Below are positions 3,075 to 35,734 of a stretch of 36,059 nucleotides of DNA, in pieces. Both the position numbers and the translations under genes were made by a program. Under the pieces are notes generated by a model. That model saw only the letters and a program-made list of their open reading frames with translations, made no database searches and was not told where the DNA came from. Numbering within the stretch: the stretch's first letter is position 1; every line of letters begins with the position of its first letter. Source of the DNA: Candidatus Krumholzibacteriota bacterium (GTDB lineage: Bacteria; Krumholzibacteriota; Krumholzibacteriia; LZORAL124-64-63); NCBI GenBank assembly GCA_024275485.1, contig JAJRZA010000028.1:73359-109417 (forward strand), read 5' to 3'.

Positions 3075-4679
3075 CTAGAAACGGGCAGGATTCGCCCAGT
3101 CCTCACCTAGCTTTTCCTTGAGCTTTTTGCGGGCGGCCTTGGCTTCATTTCTGGACTTGAAACTGCCGAGATAGACTCGAAACCAGCGTCCCTTATCCTT
3201 TAGCTGCACCGCCCGGGTAATGCTTCGGAAGCCCTTGCTTGCCAAAATATCCCGCTCCCTTTCAGCCAACAGGCTGTCCGGAAAAGAGTAGACGTGCAGT
3301 GCCCAGCCTGCGCCGCCAACGGGAACCATATAAGGATCCATGCCAAATTCAGGTGGGGCCGCAGGAATTTCCACGCCCTCTGCCTGGCCATCAGACAACA
3401 ATTCGGTATCAATTTGGGCTAATGTTTCATTGGAGACAAGTTCCGCCTCCGCAGGCTCATCCTGCCCTTGACCTTCAAATGAATTATGGGCAGCCAAGTC
3501 TTCGACAAGTTGCTCGCCAGATTGGTCCGTAAAATCGTCTGCCGTTTCACCCTGAAGGGTTGTCAAACCCACGTCCGACTGTGCTGTGCCACCAATGAGG
3601 TCCTCAGACAAAGCACCATCGGTAGTTGCGACTTCGTTTTGGGTCACCACGGGGAACACTTCACCCGATGGCACCTTCAGGTATTTAAAGTAGTAGGCAG
3701 AAGCCAGCAAAATCATCACCAGGGAAACTATGGCTACCGCCCAAAAGACACCTGAATTGCCTTTTCGCCGGGCAAATTCTTCTTCTTCCTGGGACTCTTC
3801 AGCCTGTTCGTCCCACTCGCTGAAAATGGCCCTGGTCGAACCCTGGGATTCAGCGACAGATTCACCCTCTTCCTCAACCACCACATCATCCACCACATGG
3901 TCGACCAACTCATCCACCAATTCATCCAGAATGGGTGTGTGGTCATCATCGAGGTCCTTGGGTAGACCAAAACCAACCAACCCGGTCAGGGAGATCCCCA
4001 CCGAGTCAAAACTTTCCAGAAGGTTGCCAACCAGGGAGGCCGAACGCTGAGACCGATCCCAGCACAGCAAACGCAGATCTGCTTCTGCGGCCCAGAAACG
4101 CCCCACCGCGTCTGCTGGAGCCGTCACCAGGATGTCGTCCGCCTGGCGCTTCAATCGACCCAGCAAATCCGCAACCTCGGAGCCCGTAACATCCGCCGGG
4201 GTGAATGATCCCACACCCAGCAAATAGCCTCGTCGCCCTTCAAAGGGCATGGGAATGCCGCAATTCAGCACACTGGACCCATAGCGCACCAGATCGATCC
4301 ACCCATCAAGGTCCGTGCGACCTGCCCACCGGGTCAGATCAGCGTCTTCGTCGTCCCCATCCAACAGCAGGACAGCTTGGTCACGACTGGCCAGCTCCCG
4401 GGCAAAATTCAGGGCGGCGGCCACACTCAGATGAGCTTCACCGGGTTCGTGCAGGAATACCCAGACTCTGGGCGAACTGTGGCCGGCCATGGCCCCATCC
4501 AGACTGTCGGCCAGCTGGCTTTCGCCGATCAAACGATGGGCCCTGTCCCAAAAGGTGGCCTCGTCAGTGAATTGGATGTTCCGGGTCCCCCAGCCGGTTG
4601 TGAATATTGGCAGCCCACCGGGTAGGTTGGTTGGTTGTTCACCAGATTTATTTTCAGGCCTTCCGGATTTCTCACTCAT
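3075..4679 (-). CDS. SPOR-domain membrane protein with MinD/ParA-like cytoplasmic region
   Basis: A 534-residue single-pass protein. Residues ~70-240 resemble the MinD/ParA/capsular-kinase fold (a VWVFLHEPGEAHLS loop, AAALNFARELASR helix, VLLLDGDDEDADL strand), but the loop lacks the GK[ST] of Walker A, so ATP binding is doubtful. An acidic linker (~243-303) leads to one membrane segment (GVFWAVAIVSLVMILLASAYY, ~310-330). A long polar region then leads to a C-terminal SPOR domain (~455-534: WALHVYSFPDS ... GRWFRVYLGSFKSRNEAKAA). SPOR domains bind glycan strands stripped of stem peptides at division septa, so the C-terminus should be periplasmic. The start overlaps the end of selA by 8 bases, so translational coupling is likely, and smc follows. 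The domain order is clear; a division role is inferred. Confidence 0.85.
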   Translation of the reverse strand: MSEKSGRPENKSGEQPTNLPGGLPIFTTGWGTRNIQFTDEATFWDRAHRLIGESQLADSLDGAMAGHSSPRVWVFLHEPGEAHLSVAAALNFARELASRDQAVLLLDGDDEDADLTRWAGRTDLDGWIDLVRYGSSVLNCGIPMPFEGRRGYLLGVGSFTPADVTGSEVADLLGRLKRQADDILVTAPADAVGRFWAAEADLRLLCWDRSQRSASLVGNLLESFDSVGISLTGLVGFGLPKDLDDDHTPILDELVDELVDHVVDDVVVEEEGESVAESQGSTRAIFSEWDEQAEESQEEEEFARRKGNSGVFWAVAIVSLVMILLASAYYFKYLKVPSGEVFPVVTQNEVATTDGALSEDLIGGTAQSDVGLTTLQGETADDFTDQSGEQLVEDLAAHNSFEGQGQDEPAEAELVSNETLAQIDTELLSDGQAEGVEIPAAPPEFGMDPYMVPVGGAGWALHVYSFPDSLLAERERDILASKGFRSITRAVQLKDKGRWFRVYLGSFKSRNEAKAARKKLKEKLGEDWANPARF

Positions 4680-11961: not shown

Positions 11962-13191
11962 TCATTTACCCCGTAATTGCTCGATGCTTTCCGGATTCAA
12001 GGCCTTTGGATTGTAAAGATTGTCCCTCAAAAAGACAGCATCCTCGAACATATCGCTCTCTGGATACTCTTCGATCAGAATGTTCAGGTAGCGTTTGGCA
12101 AGACGACGATCCTGCCAGGTGTCCATACACACCAGTGCGCACATAAACAAGGCATCATCAGCCCGCTCACTCTCCGGGAAATCCGTGTAGATCATGCGGT
12201 AGTAGTCAATCTTGACTCCCGGGTCCGAGACCATGGCGGCGCGTGACATCAGAACATCCGGTTCCACACCCTGGCCCGGTGTGAATGTGCCCAGAAGGCT
12301 CACTGGATAAGTTTTTCGGGCTGAGCGCAGATAATCCTTTACCAAGCCATCGAAATAGCCCGGCATCATGAGGTCCTGGACAAGGGTCCGTGCCTCGCTG
12401 TAGGTCATGGGGCGCCCAGGCGTGCGATCCAGGATTTCCACAACATGCCATCTGTCAGCAACCTGAATGGGACGGCTCAATCCAAGGGGCAAATCGAAAG
12501 TGAGGGCAATAAAGGTTTTGCTGTCCTTGATCATCGGAACAACCCCGGACCTGTTGTACCAACCCAATTCCGCATTATCGGCCAAACTGACCCTGTTCAC
12601 TGAGAAATCACTGGCGACCTTCATGAAATTATAAGCCGAATAATCATCCTTTAAAAGCTGATAGGCTTGTTCAGCTTCTTGCAAAGTCAAGCATTCGATG
12701 TGACGTGCATGGACCATGCCCTCCTGCATGAACTCCTTGCGATTGTCGGCAAAAAAGGCCTGGAAGTCATCTTCAGTGGGATCATTTCCTTCTGGCACAC
12801 CGATGTTGCGCATGGCCGCTGTCATGGCCGCACGTCGTTGGGTAATCAAGGTTCGTGCGACTTCATCCCGATTTTCCAGCCCTTTATCCTGGGCCCCTAG
12901 AACAAGCAGGGTCTGATCGACCATGTCCTTCAACAGCAGTTGGCGACCTTCCGGACCATTGTATTTATTCTGCAACCTGGGAACCAGTTCGTCATAGTGC
13001 AAATCCAATTGCTGTTGGGTGATGCTGATGTCACCGACAGTGGCGATAACCTCAGAGATATCCTGTCCGCCGTTCCCGAAAATTGGGAATATACCATTGT
13101 TGGAAGCAGCATTTCTTTCCTGGCAGGAAGCCAGGAGCAGCCCCAAAGCCAGAATCAACACCACAGGCAGCGTCCGACGAATAATAACCAT
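11962..13191 (-). CDS. Parvulin-type peptidyl-prolyl isomerase lipoprotein (SurA/PrsA-like)
   Basis: A 409-residue protein with lipoprotein signal ending LLLASC (Cys 23), preceded by a good ribosome site (AAGGAGA). Residues ~46-150 resemble the SurA N-terminal chaperone helices (VATVGD-type strand, QQLDLHYDELVPRL). Residues ~158-256 are a parvulin rotamase domain (VHARHIECLTLQEAEQA, VASDFSV, AELGWYNRSG, HVVEILDRTPG). The C-terminal ~150 residues are helical with a TPR-like end (ADDALFMCALVC, LAKRYLNILIEEYPESD). Such proteins help fold exported or outer-membrane proteins. Downstream lie the DUF2914 and LpoA-like genes, giving a small envelope-biogenesis group that follows the ribosomal genes. 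Isomerase activity is inferred from the domain only. Confidence 0.82.
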   Translation of the reverse strand: MVIIRRTLPVVLILALGLLLASCQERNAASNNGIFPIFGNGGQDISEVIATVGDISITQQQLDLHYDELVPRLQNKYNGPEGRQLLLKDMVDQTLLVLGAQDKGLENRDEVARTLITQRRAAMTAAMRNIGVPEGNDPTEDDFQAFFADNRKEFMQEGMVHARHIECLTLQEAEQAYQLLKDDYSAYNFMKVASDFSVNRVSLADNAELGWYNRSGVVPMIKDSKTFIALTFDLPLGLSRPIQVADRWHVVEILDRTPGRPMTYSEARTLVQDLMMPGYFDGLVKDYLRSARKTYPVSLLGTFTPGQGVEPDVLMSRAAMVSDPGVKIDYYRMIYTDFPESERADDALFMCALVCMDTWQDRRLAKRYLNILIEEYPESDMFEDAVFLRDNLYNPKALNPESIEQLRGK

Positions 13192-25779: not shown

Positions 25780-26223
25780 TCAATCACTGTGCTGCACCCA
25801 CTCTTCAAGCACCTGGCAAAGCAGGTGCCCCATGGTGATGTGAATTTCCTGGATCCGGGGAGTTTGAGTGCTCGGAGCAACCATGGCAAAATCGACCAGA
25901 GAGAGAAGCTCTCCTCCATCATTGCCCAGGAAACCATGCACTCTCATACCCTTGACGCGAGCCTCCCGCACAGCCAGCAGGCAATTGCTGGAATTCCCTG
26001 AAGTGGAGATAACCAACAGGACATCACTCGGACCACCGAGTCCCTGAACCTGCCGGGAAAAGATATGATCGAAACCATAGTCGTTGCCCACGGCAGTCAG
26101 CACCGAAGAGTTGGTGGTCAGGGCCAGGGCGGCATACCCCGGCCGCTCAGCCATGAAACGACCCACCAGTTCGGCTGCGATGTGCTGGCTGTCGGCAGCA
26201 CTGCCGCCATTGCCGCAAATCAT
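25780..26223 (-). CDS. gmhA: Phosphoheptose isomerase, C-terminal SIS part (gene split by in-frame TAG)
   Basis: GmhA turns sedoheptulose-7-phosphate into D-glycero-manno-heptose-7-phosphate for LPS or S-layer heptose. This open frame gives 147 residues of the SIS domain: MICGNGGSAADSQHIAAELV, TNSSVLTAVGNDYGFDHIFSRQV, VLLVISTSGNSSNCLLAV and the C-terminal IQEIHITMGHLLCQVLEEWV. The N-terminal helices of the family are coded directly upstream in the same frame (26230-26391), cut off by TAG at 26227-26229. The ATG 26223 lies two codons after the stop and has AAAGGCGG before it, so restart is conceivable. Without the N-terminal helices the tetramer, whose active site lies at subunit interfaces, would probably fail. 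Confidence 0.85.
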   Translation of the reverse strand: MICGNGGSAADSQHIAAELVGRFMAERPGYAALALTTNSSVLTAVGNDYGFDHIFSRQVQGLGGPSDVLLVISTSGNSSNCLLAVREARVKGMRVHGFLGNDGGELLSLVDFAMVAPSTQTPRIQEIHITMGHLLCQVLEEWVQHSD

Positions 26224-26226
26224 CAG

Positions 26227-26391
26227 CTATCCGCCTTTCTCCCAGGCGGCGAGAACATCTTCAGCCAAGGCCTGAACAGCAGTGAAATGCGATTCGTCAA
26301 GGCGTTCAAGTGTGGCTTTGAGGTCTGAAACTGTTATTTGAAAAAAAGTGGATGCCGTCTGCCGGCGGTCATCATCGGAATTCTGAACCAT
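26227..26391 (-). pseudogene. gmhA: gmhA N-terminal fragment before in-frame TAG
   Basis: ATG 26391 starts about 54 codons ending EDVLAAWEKGG-stop. The text FFQITVSDLKATLERL and HFTAVQALAEDVLAAWEKGG matches the N-terminal helices of GmhA, and the family usually continues as G-[KR]-[LV]-[LM]-ICGNGGS. Here one codon, TAG, stands where Lys or similar is expected (AAG to TAG is a single change), after which LMICGNGGS continues in the same frame. It is therefore a broken or recoded full-length gene, or a base-call error. Confidence 0.75.
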
Positions 26392-26420
26392 GACGTTCCA
26401 GGTTCCTTTCCAGGAAAATA

Positions 26421-27287
26421 TCAGGGGTGCCGGGCCTGGCCCGATTCCAAAAGATGGATGTAACGCGCCACAGCGTCCTGCCAAGACTCACGATCCGGAC
26501 ATCCTGACGCCTCCAGCCGCTGACTCTGCAAAACAGAACAGGCGGGTCTCATGGCAGCGGTTGGATACTCACTGCCCTGGCAGGCGCCAATGCGTTGGGC
26601 ATCGACCATGATCAAGCCGGCGATCTCGCGAGCAAGCTCGAACCATGTGCATTGGCCGGAATTGGTCCCGTGGAAGATACCACGACTGTCCGAAGTTACA
26701 AGAAAACCCAGGATGGCGGCCAGGTCTTCTGCATAGGTGGGGCATCCCCTTTGGTCATCAACTACCTTCAGCTGGGGTTTCTGTCCCAGAAGTCGGCGAA
26801 TGGTTTTGGGGAAATTTGTCGATCCATCGCCGAACAACCAACTGGTGCGGACGATTTGCCAAGGCCCATTCATGGTTTCCACTGCTTCTTCACCCCGGGC
26901 CTTGGTCAATCCATAGTAGTTGATGGGATCACGCTTCTGGTCTTCGGCATAGCCAGTGGCCCCACCCAGGCCGTTGAACACGTAGTCAGTGCTGAGGTAA
27001 GTCAAGCCTGCCTGCTGCCTATCGCAATTCTCAACCATCAATTCAGTTGCTAAACCATTGACCGCCATGCAGGCTTCTCGGGCGGTTTCAGCCCCATCCA
27101 CATCGGTCCAGGCCGCACAATGAATGACCCATCCAGGATCAACGCGCTGGAAGAGAGCCTGAACCTGGTCCGCTTGGGTAAGATCCGCATCGGCCAGGTC
27201 CACACCGATCAAATCATGAGCCGTCGCCAGCCGGGTCATAACCGCCTGCCCCAACATTCCTTCGCTTCCAGTGACCAGGATTCTCAA
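26421..27287 (-). CDS. rmlD: dTDP-4-dehydrorhamnose reductase
   Basis: Last enzyme of dTDP-L-rhamnose synthesis, an NAD(P)H-dependent short-chain reductase in the cytoplasm. The 288-residue product has the nucleotide loop VTGSEGMLGQAV, HCAAWTDVDGAE, STDYVFNG and the YYGLTKARGE catalytic YxxxK, then IVRTSWLFGDGSTNFPKTI and VVDDQRGCPTYAEDLA, the RmlD signature. It starts at TTG 27287, which overlaps the recX stop (TTGA), with GGAGG upstream. rmlA, rmlB and rmlC are not in the window. It heads the surface-glycan part of the operon, 29 bases before gmhA. Confidence 0.94.
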   Translation of the reverse strand: MRILVTGSEGMLGQAVMTRLATAHDLIGVDLADADLTQADQVQALFQRVDPGWVIHCAAWTDVDGAETAREACMAVNGLATELMVENCDRQQAGLTYLSTDYVFNGLGGATGYAEDQKRDPINYYGLTKARGEEAVETMNGPWQIVRTSWLFGDGSTNFPKTIRRLLGQKPQLKVVDDQRGCPTYAEDLAAILGFLVTSDSRGIFHGTNSGQCTWFELAREIAGLIMVDAQRIGACQGSEYPTAAMRPACSVLQSQRLEASGCPDRESWQDAVARYIHLLESGQARHP

Positions 27288-31662: not shown

Positions 31663-32253
31663 TCAGGACCCAACAGTCTGCAACTGGCGCAACACCTGCT
31701 TGGCTACACATTTCAGCGTATCAAAAACTCCATCACCATTGACGGCCACAGCCTCGAAAAATTCGAAACCCTCGGGATTCAACTCCTCATTCAACTCTTT
31801 GACGGGAATGGCATCGGGCATATCACGCTTGTTGTACTGCATGACGAAGGGGATTTCCCTCAGGTCCAGATCATATTCCTTGAGGTTGTCATGCAGGTTG
31901 TACAGGGCTTCGATGTTGGCGTCAAACCGCGCCTCACTGCTGTCGGCCACAAAAACCAGGCCATCGACGCCGCGCAGGATCAACTTGCGGCTGGCGTTGT
32001 AATAAACCTGTCCGGGTACGGTGTAGAGGTGGAAGCGGGTTTTGAAGCCTTTGACTTCGCCCAGCTCCAAAGGCAGGAAGTCGAAGAAAAGCGTACGGTC
32101 CATCTCCGTAGCCAGAGTGACCAACTTGCCCTTGGTTTCAGGGGCAAGTTTTTCATAGATGTACTGGATGTTCGTCGTCTTTCCACCAATACCAGGACCG
32201 TAAAACACGATCTTACAGTTGATCTCGCGGGATGAATAGTTAATCAGCGACAC
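31663..32253 (-). CDS. mglA: MglA-like polarity GTPase
   Basis: Small Ras-like GTPase that marks a cell pole, known from Myxococcus and Thermus; it controls motility or surface dynamics. The 196-residue product begins [20 protein letters not shown], has the G1 loop [29 protein letters not shown], the G3-equivalent [21 protein letters not shown] and the G4 [11 protein letters not shown]. The usual DxxG of G3 is TVPGQ, typical for MglA. It starts at GTG 32253, six bases after AAAGGG, and follows mglB by 29 bases; the terminator lies 32 bases after its stop. Confidence 0.94.
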
Positions 32254-32282
32254 GGCTTACCCTTTCAACAGGCGTTCTGGCT

Positions 32283-32780
32283 TCAATCCACAAACAGGCT
32301 ATCGATTTCGGCTTCCACCTCACGGGTGAAGCCGTCGTCGAAGGCATCGTATTCCTCGTTCCGGTACTCCAACTTTTCGTACAGCTTATCGATGATCACA
32401 TCGAGCTCTTCGACGGCCCGTTTGACCCTCAATCGGACCAGGCCCAGAGTGGTCGTGCGGTCAAAAATAACCGCGAGGACGACCCCATTGGCAATTTTCC
32501 CCAAGAACATACTGTCCTTGGTGCCCTGGTGGTAAAGAGTGCTGAAATCCTTCTCGCCGATGAGTTTGGCCAGCTGGTAATTGGCTTCGAAATCGGCTGC
32601 GCACAGGGAGGCAAAACTGGTCAGGTCGAATTGAACATCCGGCCCACATTGGCTGATCAACTGACCGGTACGATCAATAAGAATCACATTCCGGCACTGA
32701 CTGCTTTTCAGCAGATCGTCCAGGACGTTGTTGATCGCCCAATAATCTTCTTCGAAGATGGCCCATTCGGCTCGAACCAT
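32283..32780 (-). CDS. mglB: MglB-like Roadblock/LC7 protein
   Basis: Probable GTPase-activating partner of MglA. The 165-residue product has a Roadblock/LC7 domain at ~10-130: INNVLDDLLKSSQCRNVILIDRTGQLISQ, SFASLCAADFEANYQLAKLIGE, MFLGKIANGVVLAVIFD and TTLGLVRLRVKRAVEEL. An acidic C-terminal tail of about 35 residues follows. The ATG has GGGAG six bases upstream. Its place immediately before mglA on the same strand supports the pairing; the GAP role is known for the family, not shown here. Confidence 0.88.
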   Translation of the reverse strand: MVRAEWAIFEEDYWAINNVLDDLLKSSQCRNVILIDRTGQLISQCGPDVQFDLTSFASLCAADFEANYQLAKLIGEKDFSTLYHQGTKDSMFLGKIANGVVLAVIFDRTTTLGLVRLRVKRAVEELDVIIDKLYEKLEYRNEEYDAFDDGFTREVEAEIDSLFVD

Positions 32781-33859: not shown

Positions 33860-34522
33860 TTATTTCCAGTTGTCGCGATCTTCTTCGTGCAGCGGTTCAC
33901 CGTGGAGGGTATCGACCAACTGCTCCAGCGCCGAATCCTGGGCACAAGCCCTGGCCAGCTCTTCGACGGTGGTGGGAGCCACTTTTCTTCGGATCTCCTC
34001 TTTGATTTCCCTCACCTGCCCCCGGGTGCCGAGGAGCAATTCCACTTTGATGGGACGTGCAAATTGTTTTGAAGCGGCTTCTTCCAGGGCGGGAATCTGC
34101 CCCTCCACCATTTTAACCTTGAACTGCTTGTCCTGCTCGAAAGCGATGGTCAGACGGCCATTTTTCAGATCAAGGGATGGCAGCCCTTCCATGAGGCAAG
34201 CCGCCACGGCTGGTTTGACGGCCATCAGATTGTCGATCAATTGGGTCCAACCTGGAACCGTCTCGCCGGCGGTGTTGTTGGCGGTGTTGTTGGCGGTGTT
34301 GTTGGCGGTGTTGCCGGCGGTGTTGCTGGCCGCTGAAGTTGGTTTGCCTGGCCCGGCATTCCGGGGAGCCACAATTTCAGGTGCCGATGCAGGTGCCGAT
34401 GCAGGTGCGGCAAACCGGCCACCTCCTGCACCACCGCCTGATGCGGAACTTCCACCAAGGGCTTCCAGACGATGGGCCAGATCCGACAGCAAAACCCGCG
34501 ATTCAAATCGGCAATATTCCAC
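33860..34522 (-). pseudogene. dnaX: dnaX, C-terminal (tau) part behind in-frame TAA
   Basis: This open frame continues the dnaX frame after the TAA at 34532-34534. Its first residues (VEYCRFESRVLLSDLAHRLEAL) match the end of domain III of the clamp-loader subunit. A low-complexity linker follows (Ser/Gly/Ala, then NTAN repeats), and then a tau-type C-terminal domain (WTQLIDNLMAVKPAVAACLMEG ... GRLTIAFEQDKQFKVKM ... IKVELLLG). A GTG at 34522 could start it, but no ribosome site is visible. It is either part of a broken or read-through dnaX or a separately started tail. Confidence 0.7.
34268..34327. repeat. 12-bp tandem repeat in the tau linker
   Basis: Five copies of GGCGGTGTTGTT (the last two changed to ...GCC and ...GCT). 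On the coding strand each unit encodes Asn-Thr-Ala-Asn or a variant. A second short repeat (gccgatgcaggt, about two units, 34383-34410) encodes Ser-Ala-Pro-Ala. Such repeats change copy number easily without shifting the frame. Confidence 0.85.
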
Positions 34523-34531
34523 CAGGGAAGC

Positions 34532-35587
34532 TTACAGCATTATTCGTGGCTGGGTGCTGCGATGAATGCGTTCAAAGTGTTGACCAGAACGATCAATCAA
34601 GGCCAGCAGATCCTGTTCGGTAAAATTGACGGCCTGTTTTCCCAGTTCTTCGATTTGCTCTGGTGGCAAATCTACCATTTCCGCCAACTCCGGATCGATT
34701 TTAAGCAGCATCAAATTGCGGAAATTGCTGACCACGCCCCGAGCAAAGGCATCCAGGCTGTGGCCGGTGCTGCTGAGGCTTTCCACCAGGCGCAGTGCGC
34801 GGGCGGCATCTTTGGCAATGATAGCTTCGTTCAACTCAACATAAAGCTGGGATCGAACCAGCCCAAAGGCTGATACCACCGTGTCCTCGGTGATGGTTCC
34901 CTCACAACCTGCGATCACCTGATCGAGCAAACTCAACCCGTCACGCACACTACCTTCAGCTAGGCTGACCAAAAGGCTCAGCCCGGTTTTATCCAGGGTT
35001 GCGCCTTCAGCCTGGGCAATTTCCAGCATTCGCCCACCCAGTTCATCGCGGGTCAGCAGGCGAAAATCAAACCGTTGGCAGCGGGATAGAATAGTGCGGG
35101 GAATCTTGTTCGGTTCGGTGGTGGCGAAAAAGAAAAACACTCGTTTCGGCGGCTCTTCCAGGATTTTCAAAAGGGCGTTGAAGGCACCCTTGGAAAGCAT
35201 GTGAACTTCATCAATGATGAAAACACGACTACTGCCTTCACTGGGCGAATACTGGGCCATATCGCGCAGTTCACGGATGTTGTCCACGCCCGTATTGCTG
35301 GCGGCGTCGATTTCCAGCACATCGAGATAACTTCCCCTGGCGATGGCCATGCAGGTTTCGCAAGTGCCACAGGGATCACCCTCGCGATTGGTTTGGCAGT
35401 TGATGGCCTTGGCCAGCAATCGGGCCACGGTGGTCTTTCCACAGCCCCGGGGACCACTGAATAAATAAGCATGGCTCAGCTTGTCCCGCGCCATGGCGGC
35501 GCGCAGGGTGCTGGTAACGTGGGCCTGACCAACCACTTGATCAAAAGTCTCAGGACGATACTTGCGGGCAATTGCTTGATAGGACAT
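34532..35587 (-). CDS. dnaX: DNA polymerase III gamma/tau subunit, clamp-loader part ending at in-frame TAA
   Basis: ATPase of the clamp loader, which places the sliding clamp on DNA. The 351-residue product starts MSYQAIARKYRPETFDQVVGQ and shows Walker A FSGPRGCGKTT (~44-53), zinc cysteines at ~64, 73, 76 and 79, the DEVHML box, and LSRCQRF (sensor/arginine finger). Domain III runs to IHRSTQPRIML, where TAA stops it. Relatives continue as RLMLE.AL(V)RL, so the stop stands in the last helix of the collar domain and the same frame carries on beyond it. Hence this is not a clean gamma form. ATG 35587 is chosen by family match; the ribosome site is weak (GAAAG). It leads dnaX-ybaB-recR. Confidence 0.93.
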   Translation of the reverse strand: MSYQAIARKYRPETFDQVVGQAHVTSTLRAAMARDKLSHAYLFSGPRGCGKTTVARLLAKAINCQTNREGDPCGTCETCMAIARGSYLDVLEIDAASNTGVDNIRELRDMAQYSPSEGSSRVFIIDEVHMLSKGAFNALLKILEEPPKRVFFFFATTEPNKIPRTILSRCQRFDFRLLTRDELGGRMLEIAQAEGATLDKTGLSLLVSLAEGSVRDGLSLLDQVIAGCEGTITEDTVVSAFGLVRSQLYVELNEAIIAKDAARALRLVESLSSTGHSLDAFARGVVSNFRNLMLLKIDPELAEMVDLPPEQIEELGKQAVNFTEQDLLALIDRSGQHFERIHRSTQPRIML

Positions 35588-35734
35588 TGCAGGTGCTTTC
35601 TGAAAATACAGATTTAAGAGGCGATGCTCGGCGAATGGAGAATTTAACATGAAATTCCGCATTGGGAAATGTGGATCAAAAGAAAGTTAGGAAACATGGC
35701 AAAGAAATTGTAATTGAATTGCACTTTGGTACCG

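Follow-up and report, generated by a model that had tools for sequence, protein, structure and literature searches.

Does the TAA codon that interrupts dnaX in this genome divide an essential gene, is it read as an amino acid, or is it a wrong base? The window, by which we mean the whole stretch of 36,059 nucleotides analysed (contig C10, positions 73359-109417), comes from a genome assembly of 3.98 Mb in 106 contigs, 96% complete, of an uncultured lineage. On its reverse strand, the DnaX frame begins at an ATG at 35587 (MSYQAIARKYRPETFDQ...), runs for 351 codons to ...IHRSTQPRIML, meets TAA at 34534-34532 and continues with ASLVEYCRFESRVLLSDL... to a terminal TAA at 33862-33860 (Table 1); a second in-frame ATG lies upstream of this start, at 35662. 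The original prediction, that the TAA cuts dnaX within the collar domain and that the two halves share one frame, is borne out by the sequence: the match to PF12169 (gamma/tau domain III, the collar-domain family) crosses the stop, and in an AlphaFold2 model (mean pLDDT 88) built with Glu in place of the stop, residue 352 falls within the last collar helix (residues 347-359). We found no further dnaX in the genome at the above completeness, so that the gene is single-copy, and it does not resemble a pseudogene: there is one stop, the other sequence is conserved, and a second intact copy is absent. Downstream of dnaX on this strand, after ybaB-like and recR-like genes, an MglA-like small GTPase gene adjoins a Roadblock-like gene (window 31663-32780, reverse strand).

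Codon 352 is GAA or GAG in all relatives from the same family or class for which a match was obtained (31 of 31), and Glu was also found in 16 more loci, mostly from other phyla, giving 47 of 47 compared sequences. In the same-genus relatives dnaX is one unbroken frame of 576-608 codons, and no other genome surveyed has an internal stop in its dnaX match. Named relatives include a Candidatus Krumholzibacteriota genome (DnaX 85% identical) and an unclassified MAG (91% identical). Because Glu occupies this position in all compared relatives, a chance in-frame stop is excluded. In these alignments Glu is invariant at position 352, and assembly GCA_024275485.1 alone carries the stop. GAA had been anticipated as the expected codon, and the relatives agree; a sense codon in relatives had also been proposed as grounds for dismissing the stop, for which purpose the comparison falls short, since all it establishes is that the stop is peculiar to one assembly. 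A programmed frameshift was rejected: as anticipated, dnaX has no slippery A-run of the E. coli kind (there is no run of six or more, and the only run of five is AAAAA at codon 475), and the stop lies in the zero frame.

If the stop were a real nonsense mutation whose truncation is tolerated, the cell would possess a clamp-loader subunit of 351 residues without the last collar helix, perhaps together with a separately started tail. In favour of this are the in-frame position of the stop, the GTG four codons beyond it, and the shorter gamma form of DnaX that Escherichia coli and other bacteria produce; however, the cut falls inside the last collar helix and removes most of it, at a Glu present in 47 of 47 sequences, no second dnaX exists, no Shine-Dalgarno sequence precedes the GTG, and stops of the same class in thrS, guaB, ftsY and prfA (described below) are not explicable by a tolerated split. 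On these grounds (helix position, invariant Glu, one gene copy, further genes affected) we discarded this explanation, and consider a working split dnaX, or an evolved split clamp loader, very unlikely.

The other affected genes came from a survey by homology to three relatives (G003, from the same genus, G009 and G017), combined with a coding scan whose hits were judged by protein family, which covered approximately 0.81 Mb, about a fifth of the genome. The scan relied on codon usage without references and gave many false hits (gene junctions, antisense frames), so that its hits were treated as candidates only until judged by protein family. Approximately 15-16 further single in-frame TAA or TAG codons were identified in otherwise intact conserved genes in this 0.81 Mb plus prfA (Table 1). 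Comparison of contig C10 with its counterpart in G003 shows two more stops of the dnaX kind among 57 genes (gmhA and ftsY, the SRP receptor gene) and no frameshift among these genes; none of the in-frame stops in the survey set is accompanied by a frameshift. In the reverse comparison, no such stop was found within conserved gene bodies of G003, and approximately 1.3 Mb of G003, G009 and G017 contained no genuine TAA or TAG of this kind.

Table 1. Features of the dnaX locus and in-frame TAA/TAG codons in the genome. Positions given as a..b refer to the window; those with a prefix refer to the contig (C) or stretch (L) named. The asterisk denotes the stop.
Feature	Position	Strand	Codon	Remarks
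dnaX codons 1-351 (AAA+ ATPase domains and collar domain as far as the stop)	34535..35587	-		PDB match to E. coli gamma/tau residues 1-299, E = 3e-77
dnaX codon 352, in-frame stop	34532..34534 (C10:107892)	-	TAA	Glu (GAA/GAG) in all relatives; last collar helix 347-359 (model)
dnaX remainder, same frame	33863..34531	-		end of last collar helix, Ala/Gly/Asn-rich linker, tau-type tail
dnaX terminal stop	33860..33862	-	TAA	normal stop
closest possible restart	34520..34522	-	GTG	4 codons past TAA; no Shine-Dalgarno; use judged unlikely
12-base tandem repeat	34268..34330	-		5.2 copies; encodes Asn-Thr-Ala linker in DnaX tail
gmhA-like SIS-domain gene	25783..26487	-		single in-frame stop; SIS_2 match crosses stop; no stop in G003 ortholog
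gmhA in-frame stop	26227..26229 (C10:99587)	-	TAG	same class as dnaX TAA; context AWEKGG*LMICGNGGSAAD; Lys in G003
ftsY	C10:72299		TAG	Glu in two relatives; between helical-bundle and GTPase domains; just outside window (L171:11514-12590)
sigma-54 activator	C18:5058		TAA	Glu/Asp of G[E/D]SGTGKE motif
sulfatase-like	C18:7120		TAA	
ECF sigma factor	C18:15809		TAG	
guaB	C18:106413		TAG	Asp/Ala/Ser in relatives or homologues
YfbK-like VWA protein	C18:164821		TAA	
hutU	C19:19848		TAG	Asp in relatives or homologues
FKBP	C19:34700		TAG	Trp in G009
HDOD-like protein	C19:55814		TAA	Ser in relatives or homologues
kinase with PD40 repeats	C19:67125		TAG	
aconitase-like	C19:77205		TAG	Gln/Glu in relatives or homologues
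protein of unknown family	C19:96258		TAA	no Pfam match; weakest call of the set
response regulator	C19:164151		TAA	Gln in relatives or homologues
thrS	C28:144694		TAG	Asp/Glu/Thr in relatives or homologues
prfA (release factor 1)	C49:16553-17605; stop at about L320:1775		TAA	codon 94; variable site: Ala, Asp, Glu, Ser, Val, Gln

Every lesion comprises one codon only, and the remaining protein is intact. In gmhA, guaB, the sigma-54 activator, the sulfatase-like gene and the ECF factor, VWA and FKBP genes, a Pfam domain match continues past the stop; for guaB and the sigma-54 activator, and also for thrS and the aconitase, alignments with solved homologues do so too. In prfA, the GGQ and PxT motifs are kept despite the TAA, no stop is present in the gene in 29 relatives, and prfB is open. 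The matched parts of thrS, hutU, ftsY, gmhA, FKBP and HDOD in other same-genus genomes have no stop, with the exception of a partial ftsY match in G004 that overruns its frame and reports one TGA; for guaB, the aconitase and the VWA gene, interference from upstream sequence makes the same-genus counts unclear. No checkable in-frame stop is common to this genome and any same-genus genome, the nearest one included. The dnaX TAA thus belongs to a genome-wide class of single private TAA and TAG codons in one assembly. Because such stops occur in essential genes without backup (dnaX, thrS, ftsY, guaB and prfA), they are not true knock-outs, and because they recur in other genes of this genome, dnaX is very unlikely to be an evolved split clamp loader. 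The presence of the same stops in at least fifteen other genes, many of them vital, and their absence from relatives indicate that the dnaX TAA results either from wrong bases in one assembly or from a cell that decodes TAA and TAG, and the cause applies genome-wide, not to dnaX alone. Three options had been offered for the locus at the outset: the tolerated split has lost ground, whereas read-through and a wrong base both stand, now as questions about the whole genome.

We next consider the codons themselves. The 17 sites comprise 9 TAG and 8 TAA codons and no TGA. Under uniform single-base errors and the codon usage of this genome, TGA is expected in 19.6% of nonsense changes (p = 0.025 for 0 of 17), and Tyr and Leu codons are expected to be 33% of TAA/TAG sources but account for 0 of approximately 12 sites with known relatives (p = 0.006-0.02); these pattern tests were chosen post hoc, with the data already seen, and are suggestive only. 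The residues found in relatives at these sites are Glu, Asp, Gln, Lys, Ser and Trp, not one single amino acid; over 12 sites Glu fits best (11.7, vs. 7.1 for Asp and 6.3 for Gln). The in-frame TAA/TAG codons identified amount to approximately 1 per 12,000 codons. Insertion of selenocysteine (TGA) or pyrrolysine (TAG only) was rejected, the dnaX site being TAA and the set 8 TAA and 9 TAG. Separately, we observed in-frame TGA codons at a Cys position in thioredoxin-like proteins of this genome (C28:37196, L189:17196; ATW*SYCP) and of G003 (contig C22, L293:8251; TDW*PSCK), both of which are candidate selenocysteine sites; an Rfam scan of the two stretches gave no relevant match.

The same codon pattern bears on the possibility that the assembler picked a minority nonsense allele, or damaged templates, of a mixed population, in which case some DNA would truly carry these bases whereas growing cells would not. 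A multi-contig assembly of an uncultured lineage and private stops free of indels match what rare variants would give, but the minority base would have had to prevail independently at many positions. Cytosine deamination would create stops from Gln and Trp codons, with 29% TGA (p = 0.003 for 0 of 17), whereas many sites are Glu-like instead. We regard this origin as quite improbable.

A base error in the assembly consensus is the explanation towards which we lean, though slightly and at just short of an even chance. The metagenome-derived consensus would then hold approximately 1 wrong substitution per 1000 bases, the dnaX TAA among them, and the living organism would produce tau-type DnaX as a single unbroken protein whose residue 352 is Glu. 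From the sequences compared, in which every relative carries intact copies, a technical cause of the stops appears most likely. Family scores of rpoB, rpoC and two uvrA copies are slightly below those of same-genus genomes, as stray missense errors would give, while those of dnaK and prfA are normal by the same comparison. Unique changes in this genome and in G003 numbered 599 vs. 521 at 12,614 outgroup-conserved columns; when two outgroups were used, they numbered 121 (this genome, G000) vs. 117 at 4260 columns, and the distant outgroup gave 300 vs. 312. In 344 near-invariant columns of dnaX and prfA, the sole private change is the dnaX stop. A missense excess at conserved columns is hence not clear, and these tests, being of limited power, neither demand nor exclude an error rate of about 1 per 1000. 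Against error stand the absence of TGA, of Tyr and Leu sources and of indels, and contigs that are long (100-175 kb), free of internal repeats and similar to a sound short-read assembly. Other gauges of error were considered: no repeats or CRISPR arrays that could serve as an internal measure were found in the 0.81 Mb; of the stem mismatches in three tRNAs, weighed as error signs, the Val one is identical in a relative and hence natural; and counts of Asp-to-Tyr and similar changes were set aside, error and divergence not being separable in them.

The other explanation is that in-gene TAA and TAG are both read as an amino acid, either because nonsense codons are suppressed or because the two codons are at an early stage of partial reassignment, a reading that we hold tentatively, at below an even chance. 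The proposed route would be one ochre-type suppressor tRNA (anticodon UUA, reading UAA and UAG) or a weakened release factor 1, with Glu as the best-fitting residue. All 17 sites are release factor 1 codons; they lie in conserved, otherwise intact genes; the two strictest, dnaX E352 and the sigma-54 activator motif, both call for an acidic residue; prfB is intact, and the TAA of prfA occupies a position that varies among relatives and is tolerant of change; and missense changes are not clearly elevated. On the other hand, anticodons UUA, CUA and UCA are absent from the 44 tRNAs read, an absence that is not final with 4% of the genome missing, and the anticodon stems of the Glu, Gln, Lys, Tyr and Trp tRNAs are normal, with 5 pairs and none shortened. 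A suppressor tRNA is thus not among the tRNAs of this assembly, and loss of release factor 1 was rejected, as prfA is present with its motifs, though carrying its own in-frame TAA. TAA and TAG also terminate 51% of 397 long genes (TAA 25%, TAG 26%, TGA 49%), extra stops behind TAA/TAG terminators are no more common than behind TGA, and no TAA/TAG site is shared with relatives. Since both codons still serve as terminators without tandem stops, there is no sign of long-standing adaptation, and only a recent event would fit. Separately, in comparison with G003, terminal stops show a change from TAA towards TGA (23 vs. 6 ortholog pairs, p = 0.002; contigs C10, C18, C19, C28, C50 and C94), and TAG was unchanged.

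Under such decoding, the in-frame UAA of prfA would tie the synthesis of release factor 1 to read-through, possibly forming a feedback loop. The full picture, which we consider less likely than not, would be of a free-living bacterium that keeps TAA and TAG as terminators yet reads both, probably as Glu, at dozens of sites in essential genes including dnaX, with the supply of release factor 1 set by its own read-through and recoding caught at its start. If the bases are right, this would be a rare natural decoding of both release factor 1 codons in essential genes of a standard-code bacterium, release factor 1 included, and a direct test case for how stop codons start changing meaning. If they are wrong, some eighty or more genes would be falsely annotated as broken in a public genome (extrapolated from the approximately 17 sites identified in about one fifth of its length), and the combination of TAA/TAG only, private occurrence and no indels would provide a simple screen for such assemblies.

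Among known systems, the E. coli-type dnaX frameshift is similar in that a shorter and a longer DnaX would come from one gene; here, however, A AAA AAG is lacking, and the zero-frame stop interrupts the collar helix instead of following it. UAR codons encode Glu in peritrich ciliates (NCBI table 30). UAG encodes Gln in crAss-like phages (PMC9523058). The present set resembles UAR reassignment in being confined to TAA and TAG with Glu as the best fit, but TAA and TAG end half of the genes, their in-frame use is very rare and no cognate tRNA was found, so that a reassignment of the table 6, 15 or 30 type is not indicated (both codons still terminate, and there is no UUA or CUA anticodon in 44 tRNAs). 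Natural suppressor tRNAs occur in approximately 0.3% of standard-code bacterial genomes (PMC13092985). Natural nonsense suppression shares with this genome scattered in-frame stops, intact genes and retained standard terminators, and the expected feature, conserved genes that are intact apart from a private nonsense codon, was observed several times (approximately 16 in 0.81 Mb, plus prfA), whereas here no suppressor tRNA was found in the assembly, and the gene for release factor 1 and several essential genes are among those interrupted. The programmed frameshift of prfB likewise involves a release factor gene broken by an in-frame stop that is read by its own product (PMC12421855), but in this case the gene is prfA, and its zero-frame TAA is at a variable site in one assembly. 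A survey of more than 12,000 genomes reported 34 with prfA pseudogenes, for which sequencing errors were not excludable (PMC12421855). Base errors in metagenome assemblies differ from the present pattern, in which indels, TGA and a clear missense excess are lacking, but match it in being single-base lesions that affect conserved genes and are confined to one assembly.
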